A model generated the notes under the pieces. It was not told where the DNA came from. It searched no databases and worked only from the letters and a program-made list of their open reading frames with translations. A DNA stretch of 64,000 nucleotides from Clostridia bacterium (GTDB lineage Bacteria; Bacillota; Clostridia; Acetivibrionales; JAFADI01). The DNA is taken from assembly GCA_026417615.1 (NCBI GenBank), contig JAOACY010000013.1, positions 1 to 64,000 on the forward strand. Reading direction: 5' to 3'. Of the stretch, positions 28,398 to 30,414 are shown in pieces. Position 1 is the stretch's first letter. Each line of letters opens with the position of its first letter. A program made the position numbers and the translations under genes.

Positions 28398-28518
28398 CTA
28401 AAAATTGTTCAAGCATTGATGCCTTTGTCCTAAATTTCGACATTTCTGCTTTTGTATTTCTATATCATTTTGTTTTTGTATATAATATAAATATAAATCC
28501 TTTTGCGGGGTGAAAGCC

Positions 28519-29181
28519 TTGGATTTCAATTTCGATCTGAACCTTATCAATTCCCGTAAAATTCTTCCGACTCCTCAATTGAAGCAGGCTTTGGAAATCC
28601 TCAAGATGACCTCCCAGGAGCTATTTGAGTATGTTGAAGAGGAGCTGGAGAAAAATCCTTTTCTGGAAGTTCTGGACAGAATGAATACCGATACGGAGGG
28701 TGAGGAACTGAAAAATTTTGAAAAAATTGAATTGGATGAAAATGTCGACAACGGTAACAGATTGAAGTACATTATTCCTGATATAATTGTGCAAGAAAGC
28801 ATGGGAAAGTTCAAGGTGCTGGTCAATGACGATTCAATACCTCTTATTGGAATAAACGAGAAATATAAAGGAATAAATACATTTAACCTTGGCGGCGAAG
28901 CAAAAAAGCTTATGCAGGGAAAGCTTGACAGAGCAGTGTGGCTGATTGAATGCATGCACCAAAGAAGGAAAACCCTAAAAAAGGTAGCCAGGGCTATTGT
29001 TTCAAGGCAGATGGGTTTTTTTAAAAATGGAAAAAGCTATATCGAACCCATAACCATGAAGGAAATAGCCCAAGATACAGGGATGCATGAATCTACGGTT
29101 TGCAGGACTGTGAGCGGAAAGCATCTTCAATGCTCCTGGGGAATTATTGAAATGCGTGGTTTTTTCAAATATATGGAATGA
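28519..29181 (+). CDS. Truncated sigma-54-like protein (region I + partial core-binding domain + HTH; no RpoN box)
   Basis: TPQLKQALEILKMTSQELFEYVEEELEKNPFLEVL; YIIPDIIVQESMGKFKVLVNDDSIPL; AVWLIECMHQRRKTLKKVARAIVSRQMGFF; ITMKEIAQDTGMHESTVCRTVSGKHL; stops where full-length proteins continue. Confidence 0.85.
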   Translation: MDFNFDLNLINSRKILPTPQLKQALEILKMTSQELFEYVEEELEKNPFLEVLDRMNTDTEGEELKNFEKIELDENVDNGNRLKYIIPDIIVQESMGKFKVLVNDDSIPLIGINEKYKGINTFNLGGEAKKLMQGKLDRAVWLIECMHQRRKTLKKVARAIVSRQMGFFKNGKSYIEPITMKEIAQDTGMHESTVCRTVSGKHLQCSWGIIEMRGFFKYME

Positions 29182-29184
29182 GTG

Positions 29185-30414
29185 CTATCTTCCCTTTATA
29201 AAATATTCCATGAGGTTGTAGCCTTGTTCAATGAACACTCCTGTGCTTTTTGCCTGAAATTCATCGTAACCCTGTACACCCGACACTCTTTCAAAATTCT
29301 TCCTGTAAATTATATAGGGAACCGGGTCCGATGTATGTGTCCTCAAAGACAGCGGAGTAGGATGATCGGGAAGGATGAGCACTTTGTAATCATCATATTT
29401 TTCAATGCCCTTAAGGATGGTGCCTACCACCTGGTCATCAATCAGCTCTATAGATTTAACCTTGTTTTCGATCTCAAATCGATGCCCGCATTCGTCGGGA
29501 GCTTCAATATGCACATAGACGAAGTCCTGGCCTTCTTCCAGCTCTTTTAGTGCAGCCTTCGCCTTGCCTATGAAGTTTGTGTGAATATTTCCGGTAGCAC
29601 CTTCAACATCTATGGATTTAAGCCCTGAACACAGTCCGATGCCTTTTATAAGATCTACCGCAGAAATAACCGAACCCTTAATGCCGAATTTTTCATAGAA
29701 GCTGGGTATTGACGGTTTTTTCCCTTCACCCCAAAGCCATATGGAATTGGCTGGCTTCAAGCCTCTCTCGATTCTTGCCTTGTTTACCGGATGGTCCTTT
29801 AAAAAGCTGTGGCTTTTGACCATCATTTCAATGAGGGCAGCACTATGCTCTCCCTGGGGAAGATACTGAGATATTTTCCTTTCGAGTATGTCATGCGGGG
29901 GAGTGAGCTTGAAGCCTTGAGGGCCGTAAACCCAAACCATGCAGTGCCTGTAGCTGATTCCCGGGTAAAAGCTTATGGTTTCATTCTTAAAATATTTATT
30001 TACTTCACGTATCAGCTGGCCGGCTTCCTCGGAAGATATTTCATCAGAGCTGTAGTCGAGCATGGTTTTTTGGGAGTAATCCTCTTCATCCGACAATGTC
30101 ACAAGATTGCACCTGAAGGTGACATCAGTGTCTGACAATTCTATTCCCATGCTTACCGCTTCAAGAGGTGACCGGCCGGTATAGTAAATTTCCGGGTTGT
30201 AGCCCATGACTGACAGGTTTGCCGCATCACTGCCCGGAGGAATGCCGTCAGGAATAGTCTTTACCAGGCCGATTTCACCATGCTTGGCAAGAAAATCCAT
30301 ATTGGGCTTTTTGGCATACTGCAGCGGAGTCTTATTATCCAACTGCTCAAGGGGGTAGTCAGCCATTCCGTCTCCTAGTATGACTATATATTTCATTTCA
30401 TTCATCCTTTGCAT
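29185..30414 (-). CDS. Cofactor-independent phosphoglycerate mutase, ApgM type
   Basis: KYIVILGDGMADYPLEQLDNKTPLQYAKKPNMDFLAKHGEIGLVKTIPDGIPPGSDAANLSVMGYNP; YVHIEAPDECGH; LILPDHPTPLSLRTHTSDPVP. Confidence 0.93.
   Translation of the reverse strand: MQRMNEMKYIVILGDGMADYPLEQLDNKTPLQYAKKPNMDFLAKHGEIGLVKTIPDGIPPGSDAANLSVMGYNPEIYYTGRSPLEAVSMGIELSDTDVTFRCNLVTLSDEEDYSQKTMLDYSSDEISSEEAGQLIREVNKYFKNETISFYPGISYRHCMVWVYGPQGFKLTPPHDILERKISQYLPQGEHSAALIEMMVKSHSFLKDHPVNKARIERGLKPANSIWLWGEGKKPSIPSFYEKFGIKGSVISAVDLIKGIGLCSGLKSIDVEGATGNIHTNFIGKAKAALKELEEGQDFVYVHIEAPDECGHRFEIENKVKSIELIDDQVVGTILKGIEKYDDYKVLILPDHPTPLSLRTHTSDPVPYIIYRKNFERVSGVQGYDEFQAKSTGVFIEQGYNLMEYFIKGR

Follow-up and report, generated by a model that had tools for sequence, protein, structure and literature searches.

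A short sigma-54 gene, most likely a remnant, and recurrent loss of the RpoN box in Clostridia without sigma-54 activators

Sigma-54 is the protein that steers RNA polymerase (RNAP) to special promoters, and it is understood to depend on an AAA+ activator as well as on a -24/-12 promoter. What, then, is a sigma-54 gene that stops before its RpoN box? The window, i.e., the whole stretch of 64,000 nucleotides analysed here, comes from a Clostridia genome (G000) and carries such a gene, hereafter the mini. A preliminary description left two options: a remnant, or an intact-frame decoy or modulator of sigma-54. Starting at GTG 28510 or TTG 28519, the reading frame runs uninterrupted to a TGA at 29181. 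The TTG lies just after GGGGTG, and the same start is kept in a relative of the same family (G001). A consensus scan found no sigma-70-type site in the upstream stretch (28466..28518). The features of the locus are as follows.

28466..28518, + strand: upstream stretch shared with G001, with GTATATAATATA (-10-like), a GCGRGGTG Shine-Dalgarno and the TTG start (G000/G001 alignment).
28519..29181, + strand: mini sigma-54 ORF, 220 aa from TTG 28519 or 223 aa from GTG 28510, without RpoN box and without core-binding domain (CBD).
28519..28674, + strand: region I (activator-interacting or gate region), 84% identical to G001.
28675..28758, + strand: acidic disordered linker (remnant of region II), site of the in-frame loss of ~150 CBD codons; pLDDT <50 at model residues 58-79.
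28759..28911, + strand: C-terminal end of the Pfam CBD model (YIIPDIIV...), a beta segment running into the next helix.
28912..29028, + strand: extra-long helix (ELH), with the R336-equivalent residue kept.
29029..29178, + strand: helix-turn-helix (HTH) and post-HTH hairpin (MHESTVCRTVSGKHLQCSWGIIEMRGFF); the -24-binding RpoN domain, expected next, is absent.
29185..30414, - strand: apgM-like gene, convergent; a neighbour and not part of the system, with its 3' end at the deletion junction.

The domain content agrees with what had been read from the translation. Region I is matched by Sigma54_AID (PF00309; E 1.4e-12, residues 21-54). After the short acidic linker, Sigma54_CBD is matched only over its last 38 positions (148-185 of 185, E 5.7e-7), and Sigma54_DBD only over positions 3-89 of 160 (E 3.5e-26). 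The HTH for the -12 element is present, with the equivalents of T380 and R383 kept, unlike in most short relatives, and there is no RpoN domain with the RpoN box that binds the -24 element. Residues 268-404 of Escherichia coli RpoN align without gaps to residues 84-220, which places the stop within the stretch that links the HTH to the RpoN domain. The structural CBD, approximately residues 120-260, is the main RNAP anchor of sigma-54 (PMC5505868); the domain proper is missing from the mini, and the segment kept is its link to the ELH. The equivalog model TIGR02395 (NCBIfam rpoN_sigma) gives E 5e-50 and 170.8 bits, below its curated cut-off of 277 bits. On these profile matches, the sigma-54 identity of the mini is far beyond chance. 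Its AlphaFold model (pLDDT 84, pTM 0.79) superposes on RNAP-bound SigN (TMq 0.77), but predictions of this kind draw on existing sigma-54 structures and are no independent proof. Its stop and that of the convergent apgM are 3 bp apart and no remnant of the box follows, so that the C-terminus is not merely frameshifted, as had been proposed.

The gene order around the mini is conserved in relatives: a corrinoid-activation protein (RACo), a zinc ribbon protein, MTHFS, an Rce1-like protease, rpoN, apgM and fur. G001 is colinear with the window over ~17 kb of matched genes within the 19 kb fetched, with rpoN mid-way, and at the locus of the mini it encodes a full-length RpoN of 461 aa. In the protein tree, the mini is sister to this RpoN (support 99/95), with branches of 0.77 for the mini and 0.23 for G001. 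By position and phylogeny, the mini is the direct ortholog of an ordinary rpoN. Between its RpoN box and apgM, G001 has a terminator-like hairpin and then a small convergent gene. Relative to this arrangement, the window has lost ~0.85 kb between the end of the HTH and the tail of apgM and, in a second loss that kept the frame, ~150 CBD codons. The possibility that both deletions reflect a misassembled full-length gene is suggested by the draft state of G000 (127 contigs, 84% complete). We regard it as highly improbable: the locus is mid-contig with flanks colinear with G001, the leftover coding sequence is only 60% identical to G001, as in a real diverged gene, the junctions are in frame and at domain boundaries, and relatives without the box include the isolate Anaerobacterium chartisolvens and a single-contig genome (G003).

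Two other components recur near this locus. A small conserved protein convergent with rpoN (~101-104 aa, MAREIPQKLLMFLKNALKDVDDGYEY...) is found at L059 9660-9965 (minus strand) and in 7 further relatives; it is absent from the window, where its stretch was removed by the same deletion as the RpoN box. A large serine recombinase (~500 aa) lies just downstream of rpoN in 16 of 20 relatives (e.g., L069, L072, L076, L062, L064 and L043). We rejected it as a conserved functional partner, because it flanks full and short rpoN alike and is missing in G000 and G001.

Could the mini still serve a sigma-54 regulon? The assembly of G000 (2.46 Mb) has no other Sigma54_DBD gene, hence no full-length rpoN, and no GAFTGA AAA+ activator, both within a genome that is 84% complete. 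A simple decoy of sigma-54 itself, one of the roles first suggested, is thus not possible in G000. Its sole strong PF00158 protein (E ~3e-38) is a GAF-PAS-AAA-Fis regulator adjoining a DhaL-like gene.

G000 contig C41, L089 6594-8342: DhaR-like GAF-PAS-AAA-Fis regulator, with GAFTGA replaced (ELFGSESETSKTNPGI) and the Walker B acidic pair DE lost.

This regulator belongs to the superfamily of the sigma-54 activators, but with GAFTGA and the Walker B pair gone, remodelling of sigma-54 cannot be assumed. Weak PF00158 proteins of similar size also occur in G026 and G009 (open frames of 598 and 586 aa). A search of the whole G000 genome with the exact -24/-12 pattern TGGCAY-N5-TTGCW gave 7 matches, against 0 for the reversed pattern used as control. 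None of the 7 is a credible promoter: four are inside genes and three in one dispersed intergenic repeat, and we rejected a functional sigma-54 regulon in G000. The repeat (~190 bp, GAAACTT.GATG.AATCACT...TTGTCTTGCAATTCCTCGC...CATTTTGGCATCGGAATTGCTGC...) occurs at at least 3 places (L174, L175, L177) and mimics a -24/-12 promoter. In contrast, six relatives in which RpoN at the locus of the mini is full length (G013, G031, G037, G042, G052 and G054) each encode a single PspF-like GAFTGA activator of 316-339 aa, and a -24/-12 site lies a few hundred bases from it in divergent orientation. These loci (L079-L084) have the look of a one-activator sigma-54 system, the site lying mostly before a small secreted-looking protein of unassigned family, followed by an Amidase_3 cell-wall gene (Pfam-checked in L083 only).

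Constraint on the mini was assessed by relative rates, as synonymous sites between G000 and G001 are saturated (dS 2.9), which also defeats the proposed dN/dS comparison for this pair. The mini has evolved 2.2 times faster than the RpoN of G001 (0.387 vs 0.176). Most neighbours are close to 1:1 between G000 and G001 (RACo 0.244/0.298, Rce1-like protease 0.266/0.220, apgM 0.117/0.131), and MTHFS is slower in G000 than in G001. Identity to G001 is 54% in the ELH and 64% in the HTH. This faster branch and the full-length RpoN in G001 favour a remnant; the preliminary description had itself taken a full-length gene at the orthologous locus of a close relative as the mark of recent decay. That T380 and R383 are still present is what one would expect if the mini descended from a functional RpoN not long ago. 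Had the ~47 excess replacements in the mini been neutral, ~2.5 nonsense changes should have accompanied them, but there are none (probability of zero ~0.08). Constraint on the mini thus appears relaxed, while a long period of pure neutrality is not favoured.

Some observations count against a remnant: the 220-codon frame is intact, the start signals are conserved and both losses fall at domain boundaries. They raise the alternative that the mini is a functional minimal regulator, in which the gate formed by region I, ELH and HTH would by itself touch RNA polymerase (beta/beta') and modulate sigma-A transcription, following a selected loss of the CBD and the RpoN domain. The promoter-like element and Shine-Dalgarno kept together with frame and start, the high conservation of region I and the compact model, which would fit the RNAP-bound arrangement, are compatible with it, and an in-frame loss of the N-terminal CBD portion is also seen in two other lineages (G008 and G023). 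We nevertheless find it doubtful, given the accelerated branch, the replacement of otherwise conserved positions (K316E, E319H, S367C, Y374H, F382I and Y386G in G001 numbering), the loss of the main RNAP anchor and the lack of a second genome with the exact architecture. Without that anchor, a remnant is likelier than a working brake. As judged from its domains, the mini is no longer able to direct RNA polymerase to promoters.

The preliminary description proposed checking whether relatives share this short architecture, and the outcome was twofold. We surveyed 80 relatives, plus a class-wide sample of 243 genomes; in a scan of genome contigs, the mini alone as query gave no match and an alignment query succeeded. 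The exact architecture of the mini was found in no second genome. However, many of the 80 relatives encode sigma-54 proteins of 363-397 aa without RpoN box and with region I and CBD intact, and these short forms occupy the locus of the mini across Acetivibrionales-like families. Their frames are intact in ~17 genomes of ~10 families, and nearly all end a few residues from a ..GIFE.KYFF motif. They include the 389-aa protein of A. chartisolvens, several Hungateiclostridiaceae MAGs and G003, whereas the proteins of Acetivibrio alkalicellulosi and Herbivorax are full length. In the class-wide sample, 77 of 243 genomes have a DBD match, nearly all full length outside the order of the mini and families f20 and f32. 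The short form is dispensable, given that many genomes of this order are without any sigma-54. The AlphaFold model of a short form (pLDDT 84, pTM 0.63) is confident over the gate and the RNAP-binding part, as that of the mini is over the parts it keeps, although both draw on existing sigma-54 structures.

The absence of the box in these proteins does not result from its displacement. We rejected a box encoded separately or left as a downstream remnant, as there is no remnant 3' of any short gene, and also readthrough into a hidden box, as the downstream frames are boxless and the stops vary (TAA, TAG, TGA). Two further variants were seen in which the N-terminal part of the CBD is lost in frame: L031 1477-2421 in G008 (314 aa), which keeps a degenerate RpoN box in a genome carrying a GAFTGA activator with a -24/-12 site nearby, and L038 808-1788 in G023 (326 aa).

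Box loss is recurrent. A single ancestral loss for all short forms at the locus is rejected when the mini and G057 are included (AU p <1e-70), while a single origin of the other 15 short forms is not rejected (AU p 0.206). Counting G060 (family f20), there were at least 4 independent losses, and parsimony gives 7 changes. Leaving out G017 and G023, GAFTGA activators are found in none of 17 genomes without the box and in 20 of 23 with it (Fisher p 2.6e-8, ignoring relatedness). Among the four supported independent pairs, 2-3 agree and none disagrees, a count for which a sign test is not significant. Besides its short copy at the locus of the mini, G017 carries at another site a full-length rpoN that is accompanied by an activator of its own.

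If activators vanished, every short form might simply be a stage of sigma-54 loss, with no new function. The joint loss of box and activators, the many relatives wholly without sigma-54 and the relaxed HTH residues all fit such plain decay, but selection on the short genes makes it rather improbable as a general account. In genus g7, the short gene has a dN/dS of 0.08-0.11 for most pairs, i.e., those that are unsaturated (dS 0.8-1.9), against 0.10-0.19 for MTHFS, protease and RACo, whose values it equals or undercuts, and 0.108 for a full-length rpoN pair, so that here the proposed dN/dS comparison could be made. The post-HTH motif GKYLQCRWG.YEL..FF is nearly invariant (pN <=0.024 and pS >0.7, regional values from genus g7 only). 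The intact frames across families, the shared end point and the lack of downstream remnants also count against decay, which is already difficult to defend for family f6. As far as substitution patterns can tell, purifying selection on the 363-397 aa short forms is strong.

The residues retained indicate what might be selected. The equivalent of R336, whose mutation frees sigma-54 from its activator requirement (PMC7057263), is kept in 17/17 short forms, and the post-HTH K, Y, Q, C, W and G in 14-17 of the 17. In contrast, one of the 17 retains T380 and six retain R383, a residue that crosslinks with promoter DNA (PMC5505868); among full-length proteins, each of the two is present in 20 of 21. 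With R336 and the CBD kept and T380 and R383 lost, the gate and the RNAP-binding part are retained and DNA reading is dropped. It is thus probable that the short forms attach to RNA polymerase but do not read promoters, and their maintenance by selection in some activator-less relatives suggests that they took on a different job.

These observations can be assembled into a tentative sequence of events. In the lineage of the mini, sigma-54 activators would have been lost first, then the RpoN domain by a deletion reaching the tail of apgM, and the CBD would have been removed in frame. What remains is the region I/ELH-HTH module, the 'gate' that blocks DNA entry in normal sigma-54, presumably still expressed and under relaxed selection. 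In at least four independent activator-less lineages of Clostridia, rpoN has been cut at the same HTH/RpoN boundary. From published structures, the most likely mechanism for the CBD-keeping short forms is that the CBD would bind core RNAP while region I and the ELH shut DNA entry; with neither promoter anchor nor releasing activator, such proteins would compete with sigma-A, as a brake or holding factor.

On balance, we think it fairly likely that the mini is an rpoN ortholog, most probably a remnant under relaxed selection within a recurrent loss of the box in activator-less Clostridia, and that the CBD-keeping forms are most probably promoter-blind RNAP-binding factors. Of the roles first envisaged, a modulator is well motivated for this wider group and less so for the CBD-less mini. 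A bolder version, which we hold only tentatively, is that activator loss repeatedly made RpoN an activator-independent, promoter-blind RNAP-binding protein, with gate and CBD selected and both DNA-reading elements discarded. This would be a new class of sigma-derived transcription brake, and the mini its extreme CBD-less offshoot.

We found no description of the box-less group in the open-access literature, and a report elsewhere is possible; the group would represent a new sigma-54 variant, probably with a new activator-independent role. Orthologs that lack promoter reading and activators yet have a dN/dS of ~0.1 imply a sigma-54 function needing neither. The short forms also provide naturally occurring deletions that uncouple the inhibitory gate from the recognition of DNA, and the annotation 'rpoN present' is no guarantee of a working sigma-54 regulon. 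Compared with full-length sigma-54 (RpoN, SigL), they share the orthologous locus, region I and the ELH-HTH, to which the 363-397 aa forms add the CBD. They differ by the absence of the -24 domain, by -12 recognition residues that are mostly replaced and by the lack of activators in the genome, the mini being in addition CBD-less. The closest parallel is the rpoN-like sequence (RLS) of Neisseria: most of the atypical sigma-N forms in meningococci retain the RpoN box but no longer have the HTH, and others are frameshifted (PMC6755734), and the genus was noted to be without an obvious sigma-54 activator (PMC3162934). Both cases involve a degenerate rpoN, no obvious activator and retained protein frames, but the RLS is a mirror image, since the short forms described here keep the HTH scaffold and end at a sharply defined boundary before the RpoN domain, a cut that recurs in different families. 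Laboratory activator-bypass mutants dissect the same modules by breaking the region I-ELH gate (R336) while keeping DNA reading (PMC7057263, PMC5505868); the short forms are the reverse, with R336 kept and DNA reading lost.
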